Source: Antitrichia curtipendula
Taxonomy: Eukaryota > Streptophyta > Bryopsida > Hypnales > Leucodontaceae
DNA length: 64,000 nucleotides
NCBI GenBank assembly: GCA_951230915.1
Contig: OX579637.1
Span: forward strand, 24,862,001 to 24,926,000
Direction: 5' to 3'
Position numbers and translations under genes: made by a program
Notes under the pieces: model-generated
Seen by the model: the letters and a program-made list of their open reading frames with translations, nothing else
The model's database searches: none
What the model was told of the DNA's origin: nothing
Shown: piece after piece, positions 3,903 to 50,002 of the stretch
Numbering within the stretch: position 1 is the first letter of the stretch
Layout of the letters: every line of letters starts with the position of its first letter

Positions 3903-4800
3903 TTACTGTCTATGCTCTTCCAAGTACCCGGACGTGTCAATGACAAAGTTGTGAAATATGTCCCGCCTTTCCTCTGTTAGTGACCTTGTCACTCCATGGA
4001 CCTTCAAAACTTCATCTACCATGATGGGATCCTCTTGCGAGTCCCAAACTCTACTACTTGTTGACGTGTAATTCAACATGTACTCCGTCACGTATCCTGC
4101 AGCTTCTTCCAGCTCGTAACTGACGGTCATGCTGCCTTCGGATTTTGCAAGATTCTTTACAAAACTTCTAAGTCCTTTATAGTAACGCTCATATGGGTAC
4201 ATCTAGCGATTCTGCACAGGACCACAGATGTATAATTCTTGTACAATGTAGTAAGGCAGATGCATCATAATTGTGAATGCTAAGGAGGGCAGCAATTTCT
4301 CCAATAACACCATGGTCTTAGCTACTTCTTGTAACAACCCATTTCTAGAGTTTTTGCTGACGGTCTTCTCACAAACTCTTTAGAAAACTCTGCTCAATCT
4401 GATGATTGCTAACGCTAATTCCTGATTCTCAATGTTCCGCACACAGACAGGAAGAATCAGCTGCATGATTACATGAAAATCATGTGATTTAAGTCCACGA
4501 AGTTTCCCCTTCTCAATTTTTTCACAAAGATTGGATATGTATCTACTTGGTGTCTTCAAATTTCACAGTGTCTGCATGAACTCTGCCTTGTCAGCGTCGG
4601 AAAGAACATACTCCGCATGTGGCATTACAAACTTATTGCTCCCAAGAGATGTTTCTTGAAGCCAAAGGTACTCCCTCACAGATCTGTCTTCCAAGTCGAG
4701 CCTGACAACTGTTGTATCATTATCTCCCAAAAGGTAATTCAAAATTGTTTCGCAAATGTTCTTCTCGCAGTGCATGATGTCTAAGGTGTGCTTGGGACGA
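3903..4800 (-). pseudogene. CACTA TNP2 transposase, middle exon with DUF4218
   Basis: One minus frame runs from 4800 to 3903. It starts with HTLDIMHCEKNICE (canonical: LD.MHIEKNVCD), continues through ARLDL-like and LRGLKSHDFHV-type motifs, and ends with the DUF4218 signature MYPYERYYKGL followed by an EGSM.V.YELEEA segment. Two nonsense codons interrupt it: a TAG just before MYPYERY, where the family has Trp (RWMYP), and a TAA in VF*RVCEK, where the family often has Gln. The exon starts exactly where the 13.9-kb MULE begins (4801), so its own acceptor site was lost or replaced. Upstream coding sequence lies at 20645-22160. Confidence 0.8.
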
Positions 4801-4870
4801 TGCTATTTTGCGTGCGGTGAGCTTAGAGCATAGAGCAGTGAGCGTAGTTATGCGAGCCTAGGGACCCCTA
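4801..4870 (+). repeat. Left terminal inverted repeat and subterminal repeats of the MULE
   Basis: Fifteen bases (tgctattttgcgtgc) match the complement of the right end exactly. They are followed by agagcatagagc and gtgagcgtag, which recur in altered order in the right terminus (gtagagcgtagagcgtag). Confidence 0.75.
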
Positions 4871-5940
4871 AAATGGGCATATTCTATAAAAGTAAAAGTA
4901 GAAGATAGAATCTAAGTAAAAAATAAAGTAAAAATAAAAATAGTCGTACAAAAGTAGGGCCCTATATCCGTGAGGTTAGTCAAATGTGAGAAACAATTGA
5001 CCATGGTAATAGGCAGCACGGGGTGATCAAATGGTAAACAGAGACGATTCATTTCCTGAATTCCGTAGGTGCCCTATAACCGTTGTTACCCTAAGGCCAC
5101 GGGAACAGTTCCTTAAAATAAAGTAAGATACCTTTGGATATAATCACACCCTTACCACAAATAGAACATTTCATATTCTTTAGAAAACTGTAACCATGAG
5201 TGTGTCTCCAACAGTTGAAGGAGAAATTGGAAATTATTGTAGATAACCATATTGGAACTAGAAACCACTTTGGGGGGCTTCAATAGCTGTGTATTTTTTT
5301 GAATTCTCAATTTTGAAACAGAAAGAACTTTGCGAGCATAACCAATTATGTATTTTTTTGGATTCCCAGTTAGGAACAAGCAATCACTTTGGAGGCTTCA
5401 ACATTTGTGTATTTTTTGGGATTTCCACTTTTGAAGTAGAAATCAATTTAGGGAGTGTGTCTCCAACAATTGAAGAAAAAAATGGAAACTATCGTGGATT
5501 TTTTCACATCATAGAGATGAAAAAAATGTACTCAAAAAACATCCATTCATGAAAATTATAATCTGAATGCATTCAACAATGATAGAGCAAACAGACTACA
5601 ACAAGTTTATGGACAAATTGATAAATAAACGGGTTACGATTGAAATCATGGAGACTTTGCATGTAGAACTTCCTCAAATTTAGGAGGGTTCAAAGTTTAG
5701 TATTTAGTATGTTAAATTATTCCCCAGTCATTGAGAGTGTAGTCCAAGCCACAAATACTTTGGTGAATTGATGTACTTAAGCTGATCAGGTAGACAACCA
5801 CATTCAAGTACACTTCAAATGGATGCTAAGATAAACCATTAAACTGATACATACACACTTTGAACATTACAAATGGAAGCACAAGATGTATGCATGTAAA
5901 AATAATTATAACAATAAATCCGGTAGACAATGAAATAATC
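4871..5940. other. MULE left non-coding region
   Basis: AT-rich sequence downstream of the minus methyltransferase gene. A diverged direct repeat occurs at about 5165-5300 and 5330-5480 (gtgtctccaacagttgaag / gtgtctccaacaattgaag; tgtgtattttttt-like words). No supported gene. Confidence 0.5.
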
Positions 5941-8900
5941 AAAATGAGAAAGTGGAAGAACTGCCAGATGATATTGGTCTTGGTTCCATATCAGCATTGG
6001 TCTCGTCATCAATAAAAAGACAAACGCGTCTACTAGAACATCTACCAGTGGACGTGGAGGTCGGAGAAGATCCTGCCATGTGCAATATAGCGACTTTTGC
6101 GTCCCACGGTGCCATAAAATAGTCTCTGTCCGGAGAACGTAGTAAAGAAATCACTCTGAGACAAACGAGATTGTGTTAATGAACTGATCATAAACAGAAA
6201 AATGAAACAAATTAGAATCAAGTAGAAAATGTACTTATTGAACCTGTTCTTCTTTGTGATATGCTGAATAGGGACGTCCAGTGCAATCTTTGCTTGAGTC
6301 TCAGAAGCTTCAGGTGGAATTGGAGGGGTAGCTTCAACTTGGTCCAAGTGCTCCAACTTAGCCTGAAAGATCTCGATGTCGTCTTCGAGGGCCGCAATGT
6401 GTCGTCCAATAGCTTTGCAAGCTCGAACAGAGTTACCTAAATTTGGAAAAAGGAATTTAGTTTTAGAAATGACTCGAAAAATGAGAGAAAAGACTACTTA
6501 CCAGGAGAAGCATAAAGATAGAAAAGACTACTCACGAAGGGAAGCGAATGCATCCAGGACAACGGACCCCAACTTCGTAAAAGCCTCGATCAACATTTGA
6601 AGGAAAACTGGATCCTTCTCACGGGCGCCTCTCCATGGAACAGATCCATTCATGGATTAAGTGACCGCCGTAGTGAAATTGAACAACACATCAGTTTCAG
6701 CAACTCCCATTCTGAACTCTACTAGTGCTTGATTGGTCGTAATCGTGAACTCGCTAGCATCCATGGCACGATGAATGAAGAGCTGAATCCAAAATCCTCT
6801 GCTCTAAAAATGGACATTACAGTGAAATTGAATTAAAACAAGGAGAAACTGTAGAATGCAATGAATTCAAGTATTGATTTGAAATAGTAGTTACCTTATA
6901 TGTTGAGTTGTAAAACGACGCAGAAGGCAGGTCATTAATTTCCCACCACTCTTGATGCAGAACGAAGTTGTAGCCATGTCCATAGGACAACACATCAGTT
7001 TGGATCCTTGGAACATCTGGCACAAACAACAGAATTGCATCCGCACCGTGGAGAAAGTGTTCCGCAAACTCAAACAGACTTTCAGTGTATTGCTCCAAGT
7101 ATGCATTTTAGGCAGGGTCATTGCTGAGGTTTGCCGAAATGGACGGATCCCAGAGGCCATCTTTGATATCGCCAAGAATCAAATCAAAGCCACTATGCGG
7201 ACAAGACTTATTCAAAGCCTTTTCACTGTCTTCTTCCTTAACCTAGAGATTACAGAAAATGAAATTAGTTAATTCACACATAACAGAAGTATCATAAGAA
7301 ACCCGTTGGCCTCTAAACGCACAAGAATTGGTGAATGAAAAGTGGTGAATAAAAAGACAAACCTTGAAAACAAACTTGTTCACCGTCTCAAGGCAAATGT
7401 GCACCTCTAGAAGAGCCTCCATAATCTGAGAGAGTCTGGTATTCAGAACACAAACAATGGATTTAATTGAGGATCCAGATGTCGAAGCTAATATCCGAGA
7501 GGCGACTGTGCTTTTGAGCTTGTGCGTAACAAACGACAGCGGGCTAATGAGGCCAGGAAAAGAAGAAACATGCGGATATCGAGCACCACCAGGAGTGAGC
7601 TACGGAGGTCTGGGCAGAACCGACTCCATCGGCTCCATTTCCGTATCCTCACCCGGGCCTGAAAACGAAGCCTTTTTGGCACTCCCCGAAGCCATAACAT
7701 CACTCTCCTTTGCAGCCGCAGCATCTGAGGCAGCCTTCTTCTTTGCTTCTTCCTCAGCTTTCCTCTTTGAGCCCCTTGTCTTCTTTTCAGGCGCCTCTTT
7801 CCGCGGTGTATCGTGAACCGTCTTCAACCCAGCCAAATCGAGTTGCACCTTGTTCCTTAAATCAATCTCAAAGTGCGGAGGATTGTTCAAGGGGCAATCA
7901 ATATACCACCCACAGACTTCCCAGTGCTCCTTCTTCAACTTCCTCGCGATCTCATCCAATATCATACAATTCTCCGCATGTTTGTCCAAGTAGCTTGGGA
8001 AGAACGACGACGTCTTCGATGTGGCGTTCCTTGCGTACAACACAAACTTGAAATACCGATAGAGAACCCTCGCGACAGCCTTGTCAAGACCGACCTGAAA
8101 CTCAGGAGGAGGATTCTTGTGAACTCCTTTGCCATCAAACTCATGGGAGAAAGCTGTATCCCAAAGCTGGATACGATTTTGCTCCACATAATCAGCAATG
8201 CTAGGAATTGGACTTTCACCAGGCGGTTGATAATTGATGGTGACATCTAGCTCAGAAAGAGTCGCATCGAACAATTCCTGCACAGTACTCGCCAACTACA
8301 ACAGGGAATTAGTGACAACTCTTAGGCGGCAGGATCGAGTTAAGGAAATAACAGAACATGTAGACATTGTACGTGAGCCCACCAGGTGGCCTTGTGAAGC
8401 CAGTCGGGAAATGCATGATCTGGGAACTTGTTTTTCGGGAACCTCATTGCTTCTCAAAGCGAGGCAGGTTTGTTCCACCGCTCCAGCCATTTGACTTTCA
8501 CTGCCGCGTCCATGACCGAGGTTGAAAGATACCACAACTTCTTTTGGGACATCTCTGGGTCGTCTTCTTGGTTCTCATAATGAATACAAACTTGCTCCAG
8601 GAACTGTGGTGTTTGCCTTATGTCAGCAATTGGGAGTTGTTTCTTCACATCAGATGACATATCCTTCTTCACTTTATCCATGGCCTTCCCAATGACATCA
8701 TAAAGCTTCCCCATAGTCCATTCACTTGATTTCTCCGGATACTTCTCCTTGAATTTCTTGGTGGCGTAAGCTACTGCCTCACCCAACTCTTGCTGCAAGA
8801 CAACGGACAAGGCAATAGAAAGAGTAAATTTTGAAGAAATATAAAAATTTTGTTGCAAAACAATGAAATTCTCAACCCAACTATTGTAGCAGAAGGAAGT

Positions 8901-10198
8901 AAGTGCACTGGATTTGGAGTGCCGACATCGGCAGCCCTTTTAGTGGTGTCCCAGACAGCTGAGCATATTGAACAACTAAGAGGGGTGCCGATATCAACAC
9001 TCCATTTTAAGAGTCTCAGGCCAAACAAAAGACGTCAACAAACAGCGATAAAATTTCAAATCATCAAGCATGATAATGGACCGTACCTGATAGAGAACGC
9101 TTATGAGCCCGTCAAGCGTCAATGTGTACCAAGTTCAAGTCTTTGACCTCTGCTTCTTTTTGGCGTCAACTAGCTCTTCACTGGTAACTAGATTCTCGTA
9201 ATAGGACAAAGGTTGGCCAGCAATACTTTGAAGCCGGTAGAGTTTGTGTACAAGGTTTAACTTCACATGGCAGGTTTGGTTTCTCCTGTTTCAGCAATTC
9301 AGAGTAAGAACACAAGAACAGACATACTTCATAGTAAATCAGCAAGAAAAAACGGCTCTGACTTGTGGATTACCAATTCACTTGGTGCAACACAATGAGG
9401 AGTGGCCCAATCTGACCTTCCACCTCCAGAACAATTGATTCAACCGCATAATGCCATGACGGGTCGTCTCTGTGATTTCTGTTAATTATTGGCAGCCAGG
9501 CCACGAGCCGATGGTTGCCGTCCCAGACGAAGAACATCTTTCCCGAGAATTGCTTCCAAGCATCTTCCCTCTGAAGCTCCTTCTCGAAATTCTCATTTGC
9601 CTCAACCCATAATAGACTCCAATCGGCCAAATCGTTGTCTATCACGTCCAGAGTTTGGCCCTCGTTGTCCTGCAAGGCAACATAGAAAACACTATGCCCA
9701 TCCATGTATCCTGTACTTACAAAATGTGCGCCGAGTGCCATCACGTCGTTCTTCAGGTACGAATGAACAGCACCCAGAGCTTTCATCCAACAGAGCGGGA
9801 TGTTTAGTTTAGACTTCTCCCTTGGCGTGAAGCGCAGCCTGTCCATGACAACGTTCGTATTCACCGACTCCTAAACGACCATCTTGTCCATTTTCCTTCC
9901 AAGCTCCTCGGCGGTCATCTCTATTGACGCTTTTTCTGCTTTGTCAGTGTGTTGGGAGGTCTCGACATCCTTGTCACCCACTTCCTCTGCAAAACAGTTG
10001 CCGTTAGTCAAAGGAAAAGAAACAACATAACTTGACAGAACCTGGTTAAGGATTCGCACCCGACTCAAGAATTTCTGGTTGCGACAAGGATTGCAGCCTA
10101 TCCCTTACCAAATCCCTTCCAGGATAGGTCATATCCTCCGATTGTGCTGCAAGAAGGTAGAATAACATCAAATTAAATGTAGTGTTTGCACTTAAAAG

Positions 10199-10960
10199 CA
10201 TGCCCTTGGAGGAGGTGCCAATGTCGGCACCTTCTCCAAGGGGGGGTTGAGTTTTGATTCAGCACCCCCTTGGAAAGGGTGCCGACATCGGCACCTCCTC
10301 CAAAGGCGTGCTTCTAATCCAGATAACACCTCCTTGGAGGCGGTGCCGATGTCGGCACCCTCTCTAAGGGGGTGCTGAGTTTTGATTCAGCACCCCCTTG
10401 GAAAGGGTGCCGACATCGACACCTCCTCCAAAGGCGTGCTTCTAATCCAGATAACACCTCCTTGGAGGCGGTGCCGATGTCGGCACCCTCTCTAAGGGGT
10501 TACTGAGTTTTGATTCAGCACCCCCTTGGAAAGGGTGCCGACATCGACACCTCCTCCAAAGGCGTGCTTCTAATCCAGATAACACCTCCTTGGAGGCGGT
10601 GCCGATGTCAACACCCTCTCCAAGGGGTTGCTGAGTTTTGATTCAGCCCCCCCTTGGAAAGGGTGACGACATCGACACCTCCTCCAAAGGCATGCTTCTA
10701 ATCTAGATAGCACCTCCTTGGAGGCGGTGCCGTCATCGGCACTCTCTCCAAGGGGGTGCTGTATTTTGATTCAGCACCCTCTTGGAGAGGGTGCCAATGT
10801 CGGCACCGCCTCCAAGGGGGTGCTGAATCAAAACATTGCACCCCCTTGGAGAGAGTGCCGATGACGGCACCGCCTCCAAGGAGGTGCTGAATCAAAACTC
10901 AGCACCCTCTTGGAGAGGGTACCGATGTCGGCACCCTTTCCAAGAGGGTGGTGTCGTCTG
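10199..10960. repeat. 128-bp tandem repeats with GGTGCCGA-TCGGCACC palindromes
   Basis: The word gcgtgcttctaatccagat recurs at 10306, 10434, 10562 and (as gcatgc) 10690, a strict 128-bp spacing. Each unit contains two short palindromes of the type ggtgccgatgtcggcacc flanked by ccttgga/tccaagg arms, so single strands could fold. From about 10730 the order inverts and the unit is read in the opposite direction. The array lies in an intron of the minus methyltransferase gene. Single relatives of the palindrome occur at about 8920, 8985 and 16270. Confidence 0.85.
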
Positions 10961-11499
10961 GATTACAAAGGCCATGTAGTTAATTGATAAGCATAAATGA
11001 ATTCGGATCATTGACAAAATTAAGAATATTTAAAAAAGATGCACCAAACATGTGAATTCTATCTCTTGTGGTGTTCGTTCCCTCCTCTTCATTGCGCTTA
11101 TTCTGCCGCTCCAGTTCCGCTTTCTCCTTGTTGGTTTCGGATGGATTTGCACCTTCAGCAAGGAGAAAGCGGAATCAACCTGCTAGAATCAAAAATTCTG
11201 ATGAGGGCCTCAACGACTTCATGAAACTGATTGGTGAAACGAATAGTAAGGACATCAATCAAATAAAGACTCTTTACTCCAGACATGACTGAATACTCTC
11301 AAACGAGCCAAATTTCTCACCTTGATTGACACCTTCACTCAAAGCTAAAGCCTTGCAGGGAAATCCCAAAAATGACCCCTTAGCAAATCGGACAAAACTC
11401 TCGCAAGCATCCTAAACATGAAATGGAGAAACCTAAGTCTCTTATGGAAATCCCAAATTGGAATGCTGGGGACAACAAGAATCTAGTGAGCTTTCTGGC

Positions 11500-12215
11500 G
11501 AGTATCCAAGCATTAACAAGTACCGGGTCCGAGAGCTAAAGAGTACCGAAATCCTCGCGGTGAATCAAGCATTTACAAGTTCCGGATCCGAGAGCTAAAG
11601 AGTACCAATCCCTGGCATGTGCCCAAGCATTAATAAGTACAAGATCCGAGAGCTAAAGATTACCGAGACCTAGCATGTGTCCCAGCATTTACAGGTACCA
11701 GATCTGAGAGCTAAAGAGTATTGAAACCTTCACATTTGTCCAAGCATTTACAAGTCCGAATCCGAGAGCTAAAGAGTATCGAGACCCTTACGTCTGTCTA
11801 AGCATTCACAAGTTTGGGTCTGAGAGGTAAAGAGTACCGAAACCCTCGCGGTGAATCAAGCATTTACAAGTTTCGGATCAGAGAGCTAAAGAATACCGAT
11901 CCCTGGCATGTGTCCAAGCATTAACAAGTCCAGATTCGAGAGCTAAATAGTACCGAAACCCTCGCGTCTGTCCAAGCATTAACAAGTTCGGATCCGAGAG
12001 CTGCAGAATACCGAAACCTTGGCGTGTGTCGAAGCACTAACAAGTTTTGGATCCGTGAGCTAAAGAGTACCGAACCCCTGGCGATGATCCGAGCATTAAC
12101 AAGTACCGTATCTGAGAGCTAAAGAGTACCTAAACCCTAGCGAGTGTCCAAGCACTAACAACTACCAGATCCAAGAGCTAAGAGCACCAAAACCCTGGCA
12201 AGTATCGCCACAGCA
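11500..12215. repeat. About twelve tandem copies of a 57-59-bp repeat
   Basis: The unit reads roughly aagcattaacaagtaccgg followed by atccgagagctaaagagtac and a variable ccctcgcg/ggcatgtg end. Starts are near 11508, 11567, 11625, 11683, 11742 and onward to 12170. Copies differ by many point changes. The array is intronic to the minus methyltransferase gene. Confidence 0.85.
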
Positions 12216-13299
12216 AATCCCAAACCAATCGTGAACACCGTCCAAGAGTGGCATACCCTGGCCCGACTTCTAAACCGTGCCGCTAAACCAAAATCCTAAT
12301 CCCTTGCTCAAAGCGTGGCTTCTGGATAGATATAAAATCATTCATAAATGGTGGTGCTTCCAAGGAAACCCGCCATGTGAAGTCACTCAAGACAATAAAT
12401 AAAAAATTTAATCACACTAGTTCTCGCTCCTTCTTTCCTTGACGAGATTTTTACTGTAAGCGTGCCTATCGCAAATTAAGTCAATTTTCCTTGCAAGCCT
12501 ATGCTCAATCATTAATGAAGCCTCGCAAATAACATTTTTGCCTTCTTGGTAGCTGCATACGGGCCAATAAGACCAGGACTGGCAAACTCTAGAAAAAATC
12601 CCGATGTCTCTCGATAGACTCAAAACTCAACTCAACTTTAATCACAATCCCACTAATTACTCAACTCCCGACACTCCAAGTTTCATAGATCAATCTCTTG
12701 GCCTCACCTCTATCAGCATTTCGAATTAGAAGTTACTTCTACGGCAACCATCGTTAGCATCTGAGATCCTACGAAGCTGCCAAATATCGCTAATTGTCCT
12801 TACTACTTAGGTATGACGCGGGTTGTCATCCCAAAGTGGTAAAACCTCTAGCAACTCACACTTGCAATGAGTTTGCAGAAGATACTTGTGATAACACCTT
12901 GAAAAACACCAACAATGATGAGAGGAGACCAACCAAAAATTTAATCATCACATTACCTTGCTCTCTAGTGCCCTTTCTACTCGATCGTTTGCCACGATCA
13001 CCGGCACACTCATTAGGAGAACTTCCACTTTCGCTGCTAGGCTGGGAGGATTTCTCTGGAAGTTCTGCCCCCATTGTCTCTTCTGCAATTTTTGTAAGGC
13101 TACCTGAAGGATGACCCTGCAGTTTGCTAACTAATGGTTCTCTGCTACCAAATTGAAGGACTCTAATTGTCTCTCCTGCATCAGCTATCCGACAATGTGA
13201 TTGCAACTCCCTCATATTCCGAGACTTCTTCAAACGCTTCTGGTCTGTAAAATACAAAGCTTGGCAATTTCGTCTCTTCGGCATTCTGAAGGACATAGG

Positions 13300-14106
13300 A
13301 ATTGATTGTCAGCTCCATTCCCTGTAATACTTATTACCCTAGTTCTATTTATGTATCATATCACCTATGTTGGTATTATTTCAAGTGCTTGCGCCATAAA
13401 GACTTAGTTCTGCACACCAACGGGGTGTTAGAGATCATGTTAGAATCACCAATGGCATGAAGCCATTCTGACGGGCCGATGATCACTAATGACAGGTCGG
13501 TATATTCGAATCTGTAGCATCGTCAAAACTTATTTATTATGAAAATCAATATCGTGAAGGCAGTTGCCGTTCTAAGGAGTTGGTCCCGCCACCAGTCTGC
13601 GGGTTTGAATATTCTGACACTTCAATTGACGGTTGTTTGGAGGGAGGTCAAATTATGGATGACGTACTAGTTAAGAGCCTAAGGGCTTCTAATTACATGT
13701 GGAGTAGTTCTAGCTGTTCATTGACTGGTTGTCTATCCAAAAATAATTTCAAGGACTGCTCTTATAACCACGCATACTTTGAGAACTCAGTCTAATGAGA
13801 CACTTTGTTGTTTGTGCAGGATCTATAGATATGCCGCCGGTTCCAACTGGCTGCGGATCCGACAATTTCCTTTGTAATTGGAAATGGATACTATTTGAAT
13901 GGAACGTGTACCATCAAATTCGGTTTAGTAATACAGTGCCTTCATGACCTACTAAATGGCGGCATGTCTTTGATTATGAAATGAAAAGACTAAATTGATG
14001 TAGTCTTCAAATACTACGTTTCTTATTCAAGGAATTTAGTAGCTACATTTTACATTTCCTTATTCTGCATGTTGGTTGTATTGCCTGCTTTTGAGTTAGG
14101 ATTGCC
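13300..14106. promoter_or_regulatory. Divergent intergenic region of the MULE
   Basis: This 0.8-kb stretch separates the starts of the minus methyltransferase gene and the plus transposase gene. It should hold both promoters. I see no strong TATA pair and no supported ORF; a small plus ORF at 13580-13795 has no recognisable feature. Confidence 0.4.
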
Positions 14107-17100
14107 ATGTCTACGTTGGAGGATGCCATCTTGAATGCGGTTCTAATTCGAGGAGATGGATTGCCAGTGCCTATTTCTTTTAGCATGGAGGAGGATGGCT
14201 TCGTTAGAATTACAGGTTCTCGTTTGGCTTCTAGGTTCCAGATTGTGGAAGGTACTTTGGATTTGGATTTGGACATTATTGACCCAGTCTTGAGGCAAGT
14301 CTCTCACACTATAGCGCAGATGTCGTGTGACTCTCTGGGCGGTGAGGTCTGGTCTTTGTCACCCGAAAACTACCGCGTATATAGAATGAAGGACAATGCA
14401 GTCGATTCTTCAGCAAGACGTTCTTCCACGACATTAGTAGTCACTCCAATGCTTTGGAATGTTAAACTAGAGCATGTCAATGGTCTAGTCCTGCTTCTTA
14501 GTGATGATTCTGATAGTGACTGCATCCTTTCAATGCCAGACTTCACTGCTCCCAACCTTGTAGGACCCACGGTCGTGCATGCACCTTCCGTTCTTGAGTC
14601 TGGTCCCTCCCGTTCGTTAGGTCCCTCCACTTCTAAGCCTCCCTTGCCACATGCTGAAAGTATTGTCTCCTGCCTACGCTAGTTGAATACAACCAAGGGT
14701 GCTAGGTCAATTCTTAGCAAGTTAGACTACAATTCAATTACGATAGAGAAGGTAGAGTATCTGCCCCCAGATTTTAATGGTGATATTATCTTTGAACTCC
14801 CTCCGATGCGGAAGTATCCGCTATCCACTAAGACCGGTCAGCTGCATGGCATGGATAAAAAGGATGACGGACACGCCTGGACTCGAACAGCTACTACACA
14901 TATTCAGTCAGCATCTCAACTTTCTTTTAGATTGTCCAATTGCTTGGGACGTCTACGATGCACGAATACTGCTTGCAAATATGTAAGTTGGCCTAACCGT
15001 TTGTCTACGTCAAATGAAACAAAGTGGGACGGTCTTGCTTCCTCTGCCTTTGTTCCTGGGTCTGATCCCCCCTCTAATTCTACTGTCGTCTGTGCCCTCT
15101 ACCTTGTGAAGCCTACTTGCCTAGATAGTTGCCCTGCTAAGATATATTACGTTTATGGCCCCAATTACATGATCGTGCCTGTATCCATCTCGGATTCCAT
15201 TCACATCCTGTGAAACAAGGTAATTATCGTGAGTCAGTTGCCAAACTTCGTAGTCTTATTGGTGAACATGTAGAAAAGACTCCATCAGCAACAAACTCTG
15301 CCATTGTCCTTGAGGCGAGTAAGGAGTACCTTGGCGAACTACTTTTATGTCCGGTAGGTGTGTCTCAAAAGACTCTACTAATTGAGGAACTAATCCTTGT
15401 CCTGGACAAATTTAAGCAAATGTCATCTCCTAGTATCAGAAACAAGATAACCACTTTCGAATACCTCCGTTGTTTTGGAGTCCTTGATAGCATCACCAAA
15501 CTGAGAGGGTCTAGCAACTAGGCCTTCATCCAGGAGAACAGGTTTCCAAGACAAGGAGCGGATTCTAACAAGGTCTTCATTTTTAAGATGGCGGAGTTGG
15601 GCTCCGGAAGTGGGGTCGACTTGGTGAGGCGTATGCAACCCGGAGGTGACTTGGAAAACACGTGGATGATGTTTGACCACGTCAAACGGGTGAAGTCTTG
15701 GACCACAATGGCTTGTCACGTCTATGACTCCACATACTGTCGCGTCATGACTATTGCTGTTTGCGACATGCAATCTATAGATGTGGCAGCTCAACAAGTG
15801 TTTTGGAAAAATCTGAATGTTGTGTCTGCTAGGCATGATGTTACTAATCCGAATTTCAAAGGGATTATGGATGACAATGCATAGGCAAACTGGAGTGCGG
15901 TACGTATTGTGTACGGTTTTGGTGACTCAACAATTTCCATGGTCAACCGCGAGAGGACTTGCCTTTTTCATTGGACCCAATCATTGGAGAAACACACCAA
16001 GGCAGATATCAAAGCAGACCTGTAGGATCAACATCGACGCCTTTGTAAACAATACAAGAACTCGATATCATTGGAAGAAGCTCAAAGTAGGTATTGGGCC
16101 ATCCGTGCATGGTGGTTATCATCAGAAGCTTCAACTGATGAAGGACTTCCAAGACTCGACTTATGGATAGCATTCTGGCATTTTTGATACCGTCAGTGGG
16201 GAGGATTCATGGAACTGGTAAGTACAGCCTTCAGTCGTTGCTTGTCTTCCTTTGGCACACCGTGCACTCGGGATGCCAATATCGGCACTACTCCTCGGCA
16301 GTGCTAGTTCTTTAATCTCTTCCTTTCTATTCACCAAATGCTTTGTGTTCTTATTCCTCGTTTCAACACTCATCATGTAGAATTGCGTGCAAGACCTGTC
16401 ACCAACCGAATTGGCGGAGATGCCCTCATGTAATTTAGCGGAGTCAATTCACAACAAGTGGCTGCAACAGTCTAGCAAAAGAGGCAGTGACTTGTACGTT
16501 GCTTTTGTCGATGACATGGTCAGAGCATTCATGCAGGTTGTTGCCTACTATCAATTTCTAAAGGGTGAAAAGTCAGGTACTGGTTAGGGAAAAGAAGAAC
16601 TCCGTCTTTGTATTGCCCAACGCACCGCTCAACAATCCGGAAATTCAAAGGTTCTTCATGTTGCCTTCGCCAATATGCCTGGTGTTGACGTCTTCTGCAC
16701 ACGTGATCCTCATCTGGAAGGAGAGGAAGTTTTTGTTTCCTTGAAGAGAAAGGCTGATCTCCCTCCGGGATCAAAATTCAACTTGCACCGCCCTGACAAG
16801 ATTAGTGTCTCCCGCCCAAGGCGCAAGGCCCAACAGCTTAATCCAGAGATTGTTGATCTCACTGCTGAGGAACTACAGTCAGAATTTGAACTTTGACCAG
16901 GAGAAGGCACTACTCCCCCACTTAAGTCACCATTGACTCACTCTTCAACACAGCATGTCAAATCAGTTCAGGAGACCATTTGCGATGAGCGGCAGTGGCA
17001 TATTGCAAGACTTCCGAGGACGTCTGCAAAAGCTTGCTTTGCTCTGCAGGCCAAGACTAAAAAGAAATGCATGGCAAGGATTGTGCAGGGCAATCGAAGT

Positions 17101-17841
17101 ACACCTGCCCCAACTTACACCGGCTTGATGGACAATTACAAGAAGGTCAGATTAGAAAACATGCAGTTTTTTTTCTGCAATGATGACATCAATCGCTGTG
17201 TCAATGGAACTCGGCGGAAATGGGTAGTTTCTAAACCTATCGTCCCTGATGTTTGGCCTGTTAAAATGGGCACAAACTTGACAAGGAAAGAGATTCTAAC
17301 TCTCGAAAATGCTGGATTTAACTTCATGGAGCGCGTGGAGCTATCCCCTCGAAAGTTGTTTGCAGAAGGGATTTCCATAAACTTGAGCGACTATCCTTCT
17401 CCTCCACATCCTTCAGATCACCCCACTAAGCGATACGAAAAAAACATTCAAAGGAACCCTACCGCTCCAACAACGAAGCACCACAACAACTGCGCCTTTG
17501 CTTTGTCCATTGTTGGGGAGATCTGCAGTATTCTAATGGTTCCTCCTCCAGCTCTCTGCTGCATTGTTACATTAGAGTCTAGAAATATTTCTAAAGTATC
17601 TAGGTATCTGTTGACGATTGGTCAATTCCCAAGCTGCGACTGCCAATCATTCAAAGACATGTCACAAAAGTCACTTGGCAAGCGAGGAGCATGGACATAC
17701 TGTAAGCACCTGTACTACATGTTCGTCATAATTTGTAGGTTAAATCCCGAGGTACATATCTTTACGCACGCTCCTAGTTTCAGCTGGAATGAGATAAAAC
17801 AGGTTCTACAGATTCTGCTACTTAAACACTACGGTGCATAG
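14107..17841 (+). pseudogene. Mutator-like transposase with C-C-H-H finger, DDE core and SWIM finger
   Basis: The product would catalyse element transposition. Exon 1 (14107-about 16219) begins MSTLEDAIL, then has an RCTNTACKY...HSHP finger resembling FLYWCH/GCM types, a TPSATNSAI segment and the catalytic core, including FKGIMDDNA and CLFHWTQSLEKH (an FHW motif usual in MULE families). It ends in FMEL before a gtaagt donor. Exon 2 (about 16381-17841) holds SCNLAESIHNKW and a SWIM finger (CDCQSF...WTYCKH, 17635-17715). Nonsense codons lie at 14680, 15519, 15882, about 16023, about 16185, 16585 and 16894; most are explained by CAG to TAG or CGA to TGA. One single-base frame slip lies near 15172. 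Dead now, but the domain order is complete. Confidence 0.75.
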
Positions 17842-18640
17842 TGAGTATGAATAGTCCTATTATTGCAATGTGATCTTCTCCCCTACTTTAAAGAGAAGGC
17901 GGTGAGACTTGAAGGGCCACCGCCAGAGTTTCTGCACAAAGAGTTGTTGTTTTCAACTTGCTCCATAATCAAATCCAGTAGAAGTTCTTGGAGCATTTCC
18001 AACTAATCCTGTAAGTGCATGACATGAATTCCTACCCTATTCATTAAATGTCTGTCTCATATCTAAGCCTTTTTGTTTTTTTGAATCCATAAACACATTT
18101 CCGTTGTTGCCGCCGACTACGTCTATCTTCCAAGTGTTTTGGAATCACCCTAAACAACAAACCCACCATGTCTTTGCACCGTAAATTATTTGCCTCCGCC
18201 TTCTAAACCCTACCCATAAGCTAAACCGCACAAAAATCTGTTTGTCTACCACCACAGTAGGTGCTCTTCCTCACTCTTCCACGCCCATTCTCCATCACGT
18301 ACTCTCCCTAACTCTTGCAATCTCCTAAACAATACCTCCTCACCCCCACTCGACTTCCATTCCACTCTTCTTCTTGCTTCAATCCAGAACCACAGATATC
18401 ATATCTTCTCACCTCTTACAATCTTTATCACCACAGTTATAGGACCTTGTTTCCGATACTTGCGTATGTCGTCTTCTTGATGGTACATGTATTGACAAAA
18501 TAAAATTCCTCTGCACTACATTCCTGCAATTCGTTCCACGGTCATAGGTCCATCATTATTATACATTTCAAAAGTATTCACCCTTAAAATGTTCTATGAC
18601 TTTTACTTTATTGCTTGCATTCCAAAAATTAACTACCTTT
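17842..18640. other. MULE right non-coding region
   Basis: Pyrimidine-rich, AT-rich sequence downstream of the transposase gene. A plus ORF of 62 codons at 18315 lies in low-complexity sequence and is not supported. Confidence 0.5.
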
Positions 18641-18644
18641 TAAC

Positions 18645-18708
18645 GCTCTATGCTCGCAAATCTACGCTCTACGCTCTACACTCGCATCTCTATGCACGCA
18701 AAATAGCA
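18645..18708 (-). repeat. Right terminal inverted repeat and subterminal repeats of the MULE
   Basis: The last 15 bases (18694-18708) are the complement of 4801-4815. Inward, tacgctctacgctctacactcgc is a short tandem of the same octamer-like words as on the left. Confidence 0.75.
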
Positions 18709-19250
18709 ATCCCCGATGTGCCTGCAAGAATGACTTTGTAGCAAAAAAAACAATTTCTAGCCATCAAGCTTCTTTTTCCAACAAAAACCGTGTTAACAAA
18801 GGCTTTTCCCTGTCTACCCAAAAGATGAAGGAACCCACTAATGTCATATTCTTCTTTTTTGCACAGAGACGTAGCAACTGCCAATCTGAATACAAACTTC
18901 TAAGCTGCTCAACAGAGCACTCTAATCTGAGAAACATTGTCTCCTTTGTAAATGACTTGTGAATACCTACATGCTTCCCTTTCGTTCCTTCTAAGTTGGT
19001 GACCACTGTCGAGGTAATATTTTGAAGAATGGACATTGTACGACATTATTATAAGATGTTTTTGCATGGTGTGGGAGCTTGGAAAGTAAGATAAGTCTTG
19101 ATTAGTGAGGAAAGTAGAGGAAGGAGTTAATAGGGGTACAATTTTTTGGTTTATCTAAGGGTAATCTAAACACCTTATCACAATTAACGTTCCATACTAA
19201 TAGAGTAATGGTAGATAGATAATTAGGTTAAGACCAGTAGTTAAAGTTTC

Positions 19251-20360
19251 TTGTTTTTATTGAGAACCGGAACCGGATTGAGATCCAAGATCGTTCCAAA
19301 TACCGGGGCCGAATTTCAAAATATAACGGGAGGTATCTTTTGGGGAGTTACCATTCGGGAGAAGAAAAGTTGTCCAGTCAGTCAGCAAAGGAGGAGAGCG
19401 AATTCGAATCCGGATTTGAATCCAAGTCCCAACTCGACTTGGAAGAGGAAGAAGAAGAAGAATATGATTTGGCCTTGATTTCTCCGTCCAGCTTTAAAGG
19501 AAAGACTTCAGCTAAGGGTAAGAAAACTAAGCCTTCAACCAATAGAAAACAGTCACTAAGAAAGGGCGTCTCCAAAACCGAGGGACCTTCTCCAAAGAAA
19601 GGTAGAAAGTAGAAGTAGAAGTATGAGTTCTTAGGATAAGCCTAGGAATAGTAGGCGGAAAGTACAATAAAGTAAAGTAAAGTTCAGTTAACTTAATTAT
19701 AGGAAAGTAAAAGATAAGTTTAGTTTAGTTAAGTGAAGGAAAGTTAAAGCTTTTGAGTGTTAGAAAGTTAGTTGACAGCTACTTTTTGAGATGCATGCAC
19801 CTAGACGTGAGGGCAAATGCTAGCTGACGTCTGAGAGGTCTTGTTGCAACCGGAAGAGAGGAACTGGAAGGTAGGAGGAATCTCCTAGTTAGTAAGGTGC
19901 CACATCCCACTGTTTGGTTTGCATCCGGATGAGTCTGTCATTGTAGTAATATGGGGATTGTAGGGGTTTCTTGAGTGACCTGCTGGCGTAGATTATTTTC
20001 CGGGTTAGTTGTGATAAAGAACTTGCGTCCCATCCTTTTCTGTCTTTTTGTTATTTTCCTTTTTAGTGAAATCTTCAATCACTCTAATCATCTGGAGGGT
20101 AGGATTTACGCGTCCTTCCTTAACATAAGAGCAGACCCCTCTGTATATGAGGCTAAACTTCTACTTTCAATTTCTAATAGTTCCGGATCCTTTTTGCTTT
20201 GGTTTGGTTTTCCGGATCACATTCCGGTAATTTTGGGGAAGCTGCAGTTAAAGTCCTTTGGGAACAATACACGGGTCATTTTTGGTGTTTTGTCATTTAG
20301 AACACCTAAAGGTAGGATTTGTGCTTCTTTGTGCTACGACACATGGCTTTTCCATTACTA
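19251..20360 (+). mobile_element. Copy E, 3' fragment of the coiled-coil repeat family
   Basis: The non-coding part from 19925 (tcattgtagtaatatgggga) matches the 3' region of copy C at 62230, and the stretch near 20255-20345 (ggaacaatacacgggtcatt; tgtgctacgacac) matches 62766-62865. The coding part at 19340-19612 matches the C-terminal tail of copy C. The 5' half of the family is missing. The fragment sits, in plus orientation, in the long intron of the minus TNP2 gene. Confidence 0.7.
19340..19612 (+). pseudogene. C-terminal acidic/basic tail of the coiled-coil family protein, copy E
   Basis: The frame encodes a serine- and glutamate-rich stretch, a run of acidic residues and a lysine-rich end (SPKKGRK). 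Composition and order match 61398-61733 in copy C. There is no start of its own; it is a truncated remnant. Confidence 0.55.
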
Positions 20361-20644
20361 AGTGAAGTTCAATCTTCTCATGTTAGAAAATCAGGCTACG
20401 AAGCTATAATCTTCTATCCAGAACTTCGTCTCTTTGGTTTCTTTGAAAGTAACTACTTCACTTAAAGGCAGACAAACACAAATACAAGAACTTATAGTTT
20501 CAATCTTCTACAAAAGTAAATGTGCATGTCCGTTACTTGTGCAAAAATGTCCTATTCACTTAATCGCATGTAAATCACATATTCTTAAAATGTTTTATGC
20601 AAAAGTGAAGGACTACTGACAACCAATTCCATGTTCAACATACT

Positions 20645-22160
20645 TTACGGAATGGGTAACCAATGACTTACCGTCCAGTAAGGCAATTTGAAGAATATAC
20701 TCAGCCGTTTCACTCCATGTTTCTTCATCGGGTCATCCTCTGAGTCCTCTGCTCCACCTTCATTCAGAAATTTCTCTCTTTCGAGACCATTGCAATATAT
20801 TTGGTCACCTATTTGACGTTGGGGAGTCGGAGCCTTCTCTGTCTGGCCATTGAAAGCTCGTCTTGCATTTCTGAAGACATGGTCCACGTCAAGAAACCGC
20901 CTTGCACCTAGATAAACCATCTTCCTCAAAATGAAAGAGTGCTCCGCACATGTATCTTTTCCACAGAGTGGACAACCTTTGTACCCTTTTACTTGTTGCC
21001 CGGATAATAGACCGTAAGCAGGGAAGTTGTGAACAAACCACATCAATATTGCCCTCAGCTTGAAATGCCGGCAACCAATCCGTTTGGACATATCCACAAT
21101 AGGAACACCCTCCCACAATGTCAATAAATATTCTACAAGGGGCTCCAAATATATGTCCATGCAATCCACTGATGGTGCTCTAGGACTAGAAACCAGCTTC
21201 AAAAAAAAGGTTTTGCTAGTCATCCACAGAGGCAAATTATAAATGGCAATCAGAAAAGGCCACACAGAGTGCTTTGTTGACTGGTTACCGTAGGGGTTCA
21301 CCCCATCACCTATGAGACCTATGCGTAGGTTTGTAGGAATTGAAGCAAAATCAGGGTATTTTTTGTCTACGTGCTGCCACTATTCCCCATCCACCAGTGA
21401 CCTCATGAAACCATCCTCCGACTTATTGTTTTCATGGAATGTCATCATTTCAGTAATCTTTGGGCACTTGAACATTCGATGAAGCTGCTCTATAACAGAA
21501 AAATACCTCAACACTTTTGATGGTACAGTTGTTGATCCTGCAATATACCTTAATTTTCCACAACCGCTATGAGGACATGTGATCAGATCTTTATGCACTC
21601 CCCGGAATAGGACATGTCCATCTAGACAACAATGAATGGCTTCATGCTTTAGTCCTAGCTTCAAAACCATTCGTCTTGCTTCATAAGAAGTTCGAGGTAA
21701 GTGGTTTGACTTCGGAAGTAAGTCTTGAGAAAGAAATTTTAGTAACTCATCCGGAAATGCATATGGAATGCAATACAAATTGCACATTGTAATCAAAACA
21801 ATGGCAACTTCTAACCGATTCAGTTTGCATCCTTCAAGACTCGCTCACTTGAATTTTGCACCAACTCCTTGTACTCAGGGCTTGGCATTTCAAAGTCGTC
21901 TTCCAATTCCAGTTCTTCTTCACCTCCTTCTGACTCCTGCATTTCACTGTGCAAGTTATCTACTTGTGCAAAGGCGTCTTGAACTATTCTTGACACGTCC
22001 ACAGGATTTCTTTCCAGCCAAACAAATGCATTGTCTCCTCTGTTGTTGCTTTGAAATCCACGGAAGTAATCCTCGCCTTCGTCCAAGCCTTCATCTGTAG
22101 GCTCTCGAATGCTTTGACCATCCTCAGCCTGTACAAGGAACTCCTCATGTAGTTAGTTTT
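20645..22160 (-). pseudogene. CACTA TNP2 transposase, N-terminal part and tnp2 core
   Basis: Three blocks follow each other on minus. 22086-21820 encodes an acidic N-terminus ending SPEYKELV. 21796-21380 includes PRTSYEARRMVLKLGL, LRYIAGS and VLRYFSVIEQLHRMF. 21301-20645 starts NPYGNQSTKHSVWPFL and holds IYNLPLWM, FPAYGLLSGQQVKGYKGCP and FFKLPYW, all diagnostic of the tnp2 (Transposase_21) domain. The last two blocks share a frame and are split by TAG at 21380-21382 (family: Gln or similar before WQH). A one-base slip near 21820 separates the first. After PYWT comes gtaagt, a strong donor; the next exon is at 4800-3903, beyond the MULE. Confidence 0.85.
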
Positions 22161-43491: not shown

Positions 43492-45024
43492 CTAATATGA
43501 ATGGCGGAAGTGTTCATCCGGAGTAGGCCAGTTGTAATTATTGGTAAATCGATGGATGATTTCGGACAAGCTACCGCGAGAATCAGTCACCGAATCACAA
43601 AGGCGCTCTAAGTAAAGGTGAAAAATCTTTGCCAAATCCTCATGGCTAAATCTTGTATGTCCTTCATTTTCCCAATGTAAGCTCACATAGTCCGCCAACA
43701 TGCAACCATTGTTGATGGCTTGAGCTATTTGACCTACCGCATATTCCTCCGATTTACGTGATAAAACCGGTATCATTGACACATCCGCATCTCTTCTATG
43801 CAAGTATGCAATAGAAAGGTCCACCCACCACTTCTTTTTCAAGGTCTCAGTCCGCTCACTCTGAGAGGTGAACGTGTACAAGGATTTCATTGGTTCATTA
43901 CGTAAAGTAGTCATGTCCCAATCGCAAACTCCAATGTAAACACGTGACTCATCATTGGGAAAGTGAAACATAATGTTGTCCAGTGAAAGATCATTGTGCA
44001 AATGTCCAGTGCTGTGCATTGCATTCATGAGGTGCACCAGTGCCCATGCAAGCTCTGTGCACTTCTTCCTCCAACGACCAAGAAAAAAAGCTTTGGTCAC
44101 CTCTTCCGGGGTCGGTTGAGAATAAGCCAACCAAATGCCAATGTTATCGGGATATTCCTTATCCAATTTTAACATTTGCCTCAATGTTCCGCCATTCCAC
44201 CAATACAAGTACTCTTCGTTCTGCATTGCATGAACAACAGAAAACCGGATAACTCCATCATGTGGAATTTTCAGTGCCATTGACCCATTTTGGTTTTAGA
44301 ACCTTGCGAGCTGAGGTCGTAAGCGTTGTTGTTGAGATACCTTCGCTGCGAACTCCCAAAATGTGGGTATCTCACGACATCCTTCAATTCGGACCCTCCG
44401 AATTGTTGCGTATCCACCCCTCAAGATTTGATCATCTTGTGGAATCACCTTTGTTGTTTCCGGAAGCGCTAAGAGATGTTGTTGCCCATGGTGCAACTCC
44501 ACAAGTCCCTCATCATTATTCCACCAACTCATTAAACCTCGCCTATTTTGATTCTTTGCAAAAGGGGCGCACTGGCAAACAAGCAAGTCTGCCCTCAAAA
44601 TGACCTGTTCAAAAGCGCCATCACCTACGCGGTGTTGCTTCCCGTACTTTTCTAAGATCACCTTTGCATTCTACAATGCATCATGGACCTTGTTCCTCAA
44701 AAATTGTTGAAAGCCCTTCCTCTCCATTTCATGAATCCAGTAGGGTACGTTTAAAGCATCCATGAACTTTTGTGCCATATCTCCCTTGAATTTATCTGGG
44801 CACTCGTCTTCATACCTCACAAATTTGGTATACAACGACGCAATGGTTTCCAACTCATAAAAATTGAAAATGCACTCAATGAGAAATGCTTTGCAAGCGA
44901 GAGAGGGAGCGTCCATACTCGCCTCACTAATCAGCTTCACTCGTTTGTCCTTTGCAGCCTTCTTTGGTCTCGCCATCGTGAAAAAATCACGTTTAGAAGT
45001 GCACTTGCAATTTCTAATCCACAA
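43492..45024 (-). pseudogene. Protein-kinase-like gene carried by the hAT element
   Basis: One minus frame runs from 45024 (likely start MARPKKAAKDKR at 44976) to 43492, with TAG at 44671-44673 and TAA at 44296-44298 and no frame slip. Kinase landmarks appear in order: GGYATIRRV (glycine loop, about 44430), AAKVS (possible VAIK lysine), HLHNDLSLDNIMF (catalytic loop with Asp and Asn, about 44000-43960) and CDWDMTT in place of DFG. A C-terminal helical region follows. The HND and DWD forms are atypical but keep the catalytic and metal-binding aspartates. N-terminal 110 residues are unrecognised. It is convergent with the zinc-finger gene and has its own CGTCCG array upstream. Confidence 0.65.
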
Positions 45025-48190: not shown

Positions 48191-50002
48191 TTATGGACTA
48201 TGGCTGGTAGTCACTATCTCCTTTGACTTCAGCTCCGCTACTAGGACCTGTTGTATCCCATCTGGAATCATCGTCACTAGATGAATTTTGCATACTATCT
48301 GATAAAGATTGTACAATCTTCCTCTTTCTTGTACTTGTTTCGATGCGCCTGATCTCACTGGTCTACCTAACTTATGATCCCTTTTGACTTTTAGTAGAGA
48401 CTTTCCAATACCTCCCTTAAGATCATGGATTGGTTTCACCTTTTGCTTGGTTAGAGGCAGACTTGCATCAAGGAGGGTTCTACCTACATTTTGTTTTTTC
48501 AATGGAGAGATTGCAAAAGGCTCCATTATTCTTTTCCTCTTAGCTTTTTTGGACTCCTTCACCGCGGGTGGACGTGCTTCCAAACCTCCAAGAATGTTTG
48601 TCTTCTCTACGGACAAAGCTTCCACTGTAGGGTTTGAAGATTTGATTGGAGAATGTTTTGCATGGCCAGAAAATCGACGAAATTTTGACTCCAATGTCTG
48701 CACATCATCGTTGTCTGCTGAAACGGATGGATTGGGGTTGGCTCCAATGCGCAATTCTTTCAAATTGCTCAAATTTTGTTCTTTAAACCGTGAGTCTCCA
48801 AGACCATTCAAAGTCGTGCTACCGCTTGTATATAGTGCATGTCGAGGACCGCTACGTGATGGTAATTGAGGATCTTGCACGAGGTGCTTCATGTCTTTGG
48901 CGTTGCGGTCTAGCATTGGGCACCCAGACTCCAATACACATGGATCTTGACTTCCCTCTATTTGAGGTGCTTGGGCATTTTGAATGCCGAAAAGTTCAAT
49001 AGTTTCACTTGTCAATGCCCTTGGTAATTCAATACTTTGGTTGACCACATTTGTGTGGGACTTCATCCCACACTCTCTCATGTCTTTGTGTTGATCATTT
49101 TCTTCCGCTCCTACCATTGTCATGGATGGACACTCGAGAATTCGAATCACTTCATCCATTTGGGGAGTTTCATCACCTATAACCATTTCCTCATCTTCCT
49201 TCGCTACCTTCGCATGAGTATTTTCCCTATTTGCTAGAATGTTTTCACTACGCAACAACCCGATTCCATCTAAGTATTTAGCTATGGAAGATCCACCTAC
49301 GTCATATTCACAGTCATCCTCATCCAGCGGAAACTTGTAAGGGTCTTCACAATCATCTCCGATGTCTGCATCATAACGAGGTGGGCTTCAAAGCGGTTCA
49401 TCATCGAAATTGTGGGTGCCGTGGTCATCTTCATCGTCCATGAGGGGATCAACTTCTTCACCGGATTCACAACCGTCGTCTTCCGATGAAGACAAGGCCG
49501 AATCCTCCGACTCAAGGTTCTCATCGTACCACTTCTTCTTGTCATTTTGCTTTGATGCACCGAGGACTTTGGAATTGGTATACACATATATCAAATCCTG
49601 TACTCTTTGTGGCTTCAACTTGTTCCGATATTTGTTGTGAACAAAAGAATAGCTACTCCAATTTCGTTCATATGAAGACGATGAAACCAGTTGGGCCAAA
49701 ATCCTCTTGGCAATTGGAGCAATGAGCTTCCCGCACGTGCCCTCAAAATCCCACCAAGCATGCGCCGACAATTGTTGTTCACCTGGATCCAACATGTTGT
49801 GGAACGGAGGTTCTCTATGGCGGAATGCTACAAATTCCTTCACCATCTTTGCGTACTCTAAAGGTGTACATATTTGCATCAAAACGCGCTTGCATGCAGC
49901 CATGGCATCGGTGTCGTCGGCTAGTTCTTTATCTTCAAGAAGGTAGGGATTCAAAAGTGCTCCTGCATAATGTAAATCGGTCTTCACCATATGTGGGCGC
50001 AA
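48191..50002 (-). pseudogene. hAT transposase, C-terminal dimerization domain and long tail
   Basis: The minus frame begins at the insertion point with VKTDLHYAGALLNPYLL and holds the hAT dimerization core (LSAHAWWDFEG, IAKRILAQLVSSSSYERNWS, RVQDLIYVYTN). After an acidic stretch a TGA at 49388-49390 interrupts. The frame then stays open through an unusual tail of about 390 residues down to 48191, with a basic end (KKAKRKRIMEPF; KRDHKLGRPVRSG). The part before KTDLHYAG lies beyond the LTR-type insertion at 53744-55308. Confidence 0.85.

Follow-up and report, generated by a model that had tools for sequence, protein, structure and literature searches.

What does a gene with methyltransferase motifs do inside a plant DNA transposon, and could its product act on the transposon that carries it? 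The question is raised by a 64-kb stretch of the moss Antitrichia curtipendula (contig OX579637.1; the whole 64,000 nucleotides analysed are hereafter the window), in which a 13,921-bp element, probably a Mutator-like element (MULE), occupies positions 4794–18714 and carries a second gene beside a broken transposase gene. The second gene is predicted to join a domain with a DGNHR motif to a methyltransferase-like domain. The copy in the window is broken, and we propose, as a tentative reading to which we give somewhat less than an even chance, that working relatives likely bind 16-bp palindromes that recur within the element. The evidence best supports describing the locus as a MULE-like transposon whose accessory protein includes a domain derived from a methyltransferase. 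An earlier reading of the DNA made from its letters (the sequence-only reading) had placed a ParB–methyltransferase fusion within a MULE at 5941–13284; that interval does lie inside the transposon, but the element proved to be larger.

The second gene could be assembled from eight exons on the minus strand, running from 9986 down to 5939. Sites and exons were hand-picked around open stretches and the exons were joined at GT–AG sites by script, leaving the bases unchanged; a phase-keeping GT–AG pair was found at all seven joints, and the joined frame holds 6 internal stops in 1,062 codons, against 41 and 64 in the other two frames. Phase-keeping at such joints is a consistency check and not an independent test; it fits one gene that is now a pseudogene, and this copy is dead because six premature in-frame stops interrupt it. 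The good GT–AG sites of the sequence-only reading are therefore borne out in phase, but the gene that they connect is not intact.

The motifs from which that reading started all lie on the minus strand within these exons. Exon 1 (9374–9986), the DGNHR domain and ParB-like by motif, contains VWDGNHRLVAW; exon 5 (6895–7242) carries FDLILGDIKDGLWD and the methyltransferase motif IV position (DIKD), placed in the DPPY column by way of P0001, a moss protein described below; exon 6 (6536–6803) contains PWRGAREK..VLDAFASL, that is, the motif X position and the start of motif I, its phage counterpart likewise recognized through P0001; and exon 7 (6244–6436) carries NSVRACKAIGRHIAALEDD, the remainder of motif I and motif II (ALEDD). 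Exons 2 (9087–9285), 3 (8373–8792) and 4 (7363–8295), the last with a lysine-rich stretch, lie between the two domains, while exon 8 (5939–6155) supplies the C-terminal tail and the terminal stop. A candidate first exon on the same strand (12957–13284, MPKRRNC...) may be linked to the DGNHR exon.

A database search with the methyltransferase part, its query having glycine at the codon that is split within motif I, yielded one match among 393 candidates: P0001, a hypothetical protein of Ceratodon purpureus (E 9.8e-23), which consists of 275 residues and contains the methyltransferase domain alone. P0001 matches PF01555 from profile positions 2 to 217 of 221 with 35.0 bits (cut-off 26.7), and the spliced window copy aligns with it at 31% over 221 residues. 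The window copy itself scores below the same cut-off, with 21.6 bits (E 2.4e-4) when the unspliced glycine is kept at motif I and 16.1 bits (E 0.012, profile positions 170–217) when spliced. After splicing, the split codon encodes arginine, giving DAFASLRNS and not DAFASLGNS; motif I is thus present where the sequence-only reading saw it, but the G of its ‘GNSVRAC’ is lost on splicing and the Pfam score falls with it.

Comparison of a profile built from the window copy and P0001 with seven phage or plasmid methylases gave a probability of 99.0% (E 4.8e-18, 203 columns), and the spliced window copy alone gave 89.5% (E 2e-6); as a control, the methyltransferase half against ParB relatives reached 0.1%. 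The seven methylases were drawn from tblastn matches of P0001, so the comparison confirms a likeness and does not discover one; eight loci had been chosen for the methylase set, and one of them (L009, a methylase without ParB) was left out of the alignment. Among the best 30 of 537 records matched by P0001, 28 matches fell under a methylase or methyltransferase annotation and two lay in records without annotation. Among solved structures, DpnA, RsrI and CcrM are the nearest in sequence (best E 1.2e-4). Amino-methyltransferases share motifs designated IV, X and I, and in this gene motif IV precedes X and I, as in the beta class. As judged by these comparisons, homology of the domain to the PF01555 beta-class amino-methyltransferases is sound, in agreement with the class named by the sequence-only reading.

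The source of the gene may have been a prokaryotic or phage methyltransferase. A close ancestor sought in viral, phage, plasmid and prokaryote collections was not confirmed there, one weak match (L001) reaching 28% over residues 30–99. Three viral contigs (L016, L018 and L019) have short matches to the PWRGAREK stretch, at 50% over 24 residues (E 0.010) and at 67–71% over 14–15 residues (E ~0.35). A single-sequence structure of P0001 had a predicted local distance difference test score (pLDDT) of 30.7 and was unusable.

We asked whether such a domain would still methylate bases. In the motif IV column the seven phage or plasmid enzymes read DPPY, DIPY, DVPY or DLPY, while P0001 reads DIPE and the window copy DIKD; the motif [DNS]PP[YFW] is absent from the latter two, and both have an acidic residue in place of the aromatic one. 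Motif I is glycine-rich in P0001 (DIGAGTGAS) and degraded in the window copy. One possibility is that intact relatives put N6-methyladenine or N4-methylcytosine on the transposon, possibly in or close to its palindromes, and so escape silencing or control transposition. P0001 lends this some weight, since it matches nearly the whole PF01555 domain, has the glycine-rich motif I and retains the aspartate and the second proline of motif IV, and transposon-borne methylases do exist, Dam-like in DIRS elements and DNA methyltransferases (DNMTs) in retrotransposons (PMC5890265; this and the other papers cited here are drawn on for the portions of their text available to us). The acidic residue at motif IV in both plant-type sequences speaks against it, as does the rotifer enzyme N4CMT, in which changing SPPY to APPA, so that serine and tyrosine are replaced, abolishes activity (PMC8885841). 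We consider a working self-methylase unlikely, with the reservation that loss of the aromatic is known from two sequences, one of them a pseudogene. That the enzyme could mark its own DNA, as the sequence-only reading suggested, is possible but made less likely by motif IV (DIKD and DIPE), by the six stops and by the degraded motif I; that reading was right to leave activity undecided in view of DIKD, and the DIPE of the Ceratodon protein adds to this doubt.

The other half of the predicted protein has closer relatives. A search with the DGNHR region returned four matches among 1,394 candidates, from ENA or JGI sources (E 2.4e-59 to 2.7e-48, 52–61% identity, 241–313 residues). VWDGNHR is present in all five sequences, the window copy included, and the four relatives share VWDGNHRL and reach ALHEVNW, which is the exon end; two of them end exactly there, and P0002 and P0004 continue with dissimilar tails (31 and 27 residues). 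Conservation of the domain across four relatives suggests a long-lived gene.

By eye, the layout around VWDGNHRL resembles that of ParB/sulfiredoxin domains, and the best ParB profile match of the domain, although non-significant, sits on the VWDGNHR motif. To this extent, in motif and layout, the ParB-like domain of the sequence-only reading stood; the ParB fold did not, and the following results weigh against a reading that makes use of it. Pfam gave no ParB family for the DGNHR proteins up to E 10 (one unrelated match appeared, in one of the five members), so that, of the two families which the sequence-only reading had named, PF01555 is matched by P0001, with the window copy below cut-off, and PF02195 is not matched. 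NCBIfam and PHROGs, searched up to E 1, likewise held no ParB family for the domain. With hhalign, the DGNHR profile scored 0.3% against seven ParB relatives and 0.7% against the methylases, both values being meaningless, and an AlphaFold2 model of the domain had a mean pLDDT of 43.6, so the structure prediction that the sequence-only reading had looked to leaves a ParB fold without support. Hidden Markov models, sequence comparison with solved structures, profile comparison and a structure model thus all failed to support a ParB assignment. Of the seven ParB rows, one is a plasmid protein with the annotation ParB/RepB/Spo0J; the other six, mostly unannotated, come from the 13 phage matches that tblastn found for it. 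The 210-residue segment of the plasmid protein itself matches Pfam HTH_ParB, not PF02195. When an extra segment was cut from the DGNHR domain the ParB alignment grew to 46 columns, but at 0.5%.

Ten viral contigs contain the exact VWDGNHR coding pattern, and six of them (L022, L023, L024, L026, L028 and L029) show a ParB-like layout by eye, L024 and L028 looking like near duplicates. Two of these six segments matched PF02195 weakly and below cut-off (L022 and L024; E 0.013 and 0.023). A 96% profile match obtained via these contigs was circular, the contigs having been picked by the motif, and was not used. Three of them, L022, L024 and L028, have very large open reading frames with VWDGNHR, of 1,589, 2,130 and 3,351 residues, which reach or come near the ends of their stretches. 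We regard ParB membership of the DGNHR domain as unproven, a lead and not a result.

Do the two halves belong to one protein? It weighs against the fusion that none of 1,179 candidates of approximately 0.55–1.75 times 997 residues, searched through the methyltransferase half, had both domains, that the joints on which the fusion is based were picked by hand in this window, and that only one copy of the element has been read. The DGNHR and methyltransferase domains might then be encoded by two neighbouring accessory genes, their union being an artefact of lenient splicing; the shortness of the relatives on both sides (275 residues with the methyltransferase domain alone in P0001, and 241–313 residues in the DGNHR proteins) and the lack of a long fusion protein among those candidates agree with this. 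The phase-keeping sites at seven of seven joints, albeit hand-picked, count the other way, and the short relatives may represent incomplete gene predictions, given that the tails of P0002 and P0004 read like intron. On this evidence two separate genes seem quite improbable, and we retain a single spliced gene in what follows.

We wondered next what kind of element carries this gene. The arms at 4801–4861 and 18648–18708 match in inverted orientation (77% over 61 nucleotides), and extending them to the likely ends at 4794 and 18714 gives a left terminal inverted repeat at 4794–4861 (plus strand) and a right one at 18648–18714 (minus strand); of 22 bases from 4800 compared with the inverted sequence from 18709, 18 are equal, the runner-up place in the window having 15. 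Immediately outside, GGTGTGCTT (4785–4793) and GATGTGCCT (18715–18723), both given on the plus strand in a register picked by eye, are identical at seven of nine positions and form an imperfect 9-bp target-site duplication; a scripted search found an 8-mer with one mismatch, its register slightly shifted from the one chosen by eye. The limits of the element, to which no strand is assigned, thus come from its inverted arms, from this duplication and from pieces of a CACTA transposase on both sides.

These pieces lie on the minus strand: to the right of the insertion, at 20648–21379, is a Transposase_21 match (Pfam, E 4.9e-58), and to the left, at 3903–4784, is a further part of a CACTA transposase, with a DUF4218 match at 3903–4202 (Pfam, E 3.5e-6, 27.3 bits, cut-off 27). 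Because they flank the 13,921-bp element on one strand, its insertion into a CACTA transposase gene is the simplest explanation, and joining the flanks across the element gives an open frame, HILDIMHCEKNICETILNYLLG, after a possible intron acceptor. That the second gene is part of the CACTA element was rejected on the transposon ends and flanks. Approximately 1.9 kb (18724–20647) separates the element end from the Transposase_21 open reading frame and may be an intron or other insertion; it contains an open reading frame rich in acidic residues and lysine (19241–19609).

The plus strand of the element holds a broken transposase gene (14095–17838), in whose interrupted frames we found a CxxH motif (CLFH at 15960) and a SWIM-type CxCx(20)CxH motif (CDCx(20)CKH at 17635). 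CxxH is a hallmark of MULE-type transposases. Terminal inverted repeats, expected of MULEs, are present, and the 9-bp duplication falls within the 8–11 bp given for MULEs, for which SWIM fingers are also described (PMC6446971). The element is probably Mutator-like because of its inverted ends, its 9-bp duplication and the CxxH and SWIM-type motifs. A point to the contrary is that the transposase has no Pfam family: its frames matched no Pfam model up to E 1 and, in one scan, up to E 10. The placement of the gene in a MULE by the sequence-only reading is accordingly upheld by the ends, the duplication and the motifs, but lacks a Pfam transposase match.

A gene within such an element need not serve it. 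Pack-MULEs carry captured gene pieces (PMC13317346), and the second gene, here a pseudogene, could be the copy of a host gene picked up in this manner, without a role for the element. When the host genome was searched for PF01555, none of 127 candidates matched at E ≤1e-3, a weak argument against a host origin, exons having been scored singly and the window copy also missed. The DGNHR relatives at 52–61% identity suggest instead a long-lived gene, and palindromes of one kind occur in introns of the second gene and, likely, of the transposase gene. We think it unlikely that the gene is captured cargo of this sort.

The palindrome GTGCCGAYRTCGGCAC, 16 bp long, has 15 matches in the window at up to two mismatches, against 0.01 expected, and all 15 are inside the element; within this window, at that threshold, such palindromes beside a cargo gene occur only in this element. 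At three mismatches there are 17 matches, two of them outside the element, and five plain shuffles gave 1–3. Twelve copies are in a tandem array with a 64-bp unit, upstream of the DGNHR exon (10203–10950, plus strand). The other three are isolated, also given on the plus strand: two (8919–8934 and 8985–9000) lie in the intron that separates exon 2 from exon 3, and one (16273–16288) lies between transposase coding blocks, by eye likely in an intron. Compared with the array majority, the isolated copies agree at 13 of 16 core bases and at 6–8 of 24 bases on each side, while the array copies show 89% conservation in the core and 78% in the flank. Three matches outside the array, on both sides of the element, where 0.01 are expected, suggest that the palindrome has been retained as a site, perhaps one to which a protein binds.

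Two caveats temper this suggestion: the search that found the isolated palindromes used their core, so that the contrast of core and flank is partly built in and is no proof of selection alone; and the copies at 8919 and 8985 are 66 bp apart, close to the 64-bp period, and may be remnants of an older array. An ordinary minisatellite within the element, with three remnants and without any protein partner, would account for that spacing; MULEs with minisatellites are known (PMC6446971), and another tandem array, its unit 58 bp long (11505–12200, 11.9 copies), stands beside the palindromic one in the same element. The three matches beyond the array, on both sides of the element and against 0.01 expected window-wide, and the better-kept core within the array do not fit it as readily. 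A plain minisatellite is a real possibility, if on balance a doubtful one.

In the reading that we prefer, the eight exons would be spliced into one protein that joins the DGNHR domain, possibly ParB-like, to the methyltransferase-like domain. The DGNHR domain would bind DNA, with GTGCCGAYRTCGGCAC as its site, and the methyltransferase half would be a module that binds S-adenosylmethionine (AdoMet) or holds DNA, and not a standard base methylase. The protein would help the element to resist silencing or control its transposition, as VANC does on the tandem repeats of Arabidopsis VANDAL elements, and by this analogy we favour a self-targeting, VANC-like accessory protein over a working self-methylase. 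The accessory genes mudrB of maize and vanB and vanC of VANDAL are likewise second genes that accompany the transposase of Mutator-like elements, and VANC binds noncoding regions of its own elements that form tandem repeats (PMC6446971; PMC10398659), its binding removing silent marks (PMC10398659). Here the array is present and binding would follow by analogy; in the portions of these papers available, no methyltransferase or DGNHR domain is mentioned for mudrB, vanB or vanC, and the likeness is one of description.

A bacterial counterpart to the domain arrangement is Bce_0392 of Bacillus cereus, a ParB domain with nicking activity fused to an adenine methylase (PMC5512222). The comparison is again by description as given there, and the gene in the element differs in that it is spliced and eukaryotic, has lost the motif IV aromatic and has an unproven ParB fold. 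In its boldest form, the proposal would be that a DNA transposon domesticated a bacterial-type ParB-plus-methylase, which reads a parS-like palindrome in introns and in the 64-bp array and whose altered, AdoMet-binding methylase half marks or shields the element; we judge this distinctly unlikely.

Elsewhere in the window, pieces of a hAT-type transposase lie on the minus strand at 49391–50008 and 54296–54862 (Dimer_Tnp_hAT, E 6.3e-10; DUF659, E 1.8e-24), and a kinase-like open reading frame (43495–44295, minus strand) has weak APH and Pkinase matches below cut-off. Together with the CACTA pieces and the moss protein P0001, the hAT pieces would fit a land-plant genome.

Methylase-carrying transposons, chiefly retrotransposons, are already known, as are Arabidopsis MULEs with anti-silencing proteins that act on tandem repeats. 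The former include DIRS elements with Dam-like enzymes, long interspersed nuclear elements (LINEs), DIRS and Gypsy elements with DNMTs, and marine-virus DNA transposons with a DNMT, cited in passing (PMC5890265); in contrast to the element described here, they are mostly retrotransposons, their enzymes are Dam-like or C5 and not of the PF01555 type, and the available text mentions no DGNHR domain. Amino-methyltransferases of bacterial origin also occur in eukaryotes, namely N4CMT in rotifers and MpDN4MT1a/b in Marchantia (PMC8885841; PMC8566409). As far as the available parts of these papers go, they are described as host enzymes, and the SPPY of N4CMT is absent from the window copy; this likeness, too, is one of description. 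Full-text literature searches, seen as titles and the starts of abstracts and with most subscription papers outside their reach, returned no MULE with such a cargo gene, and the word ‘methyltransferase’ is absent from the main text both of a paper on MULE phylogeny (PMC6446971) and of a review on how plant transposons capture genes (PMC13317346).

If our reading is true, an amino-methyltransferase relative in a MULE-like DNA transposon, together with that transposon's own palindromes, would join the theme of methylase cargo to that of anti-silencing, and how a DNA transposon recognizes and marks itself would become directly testable.

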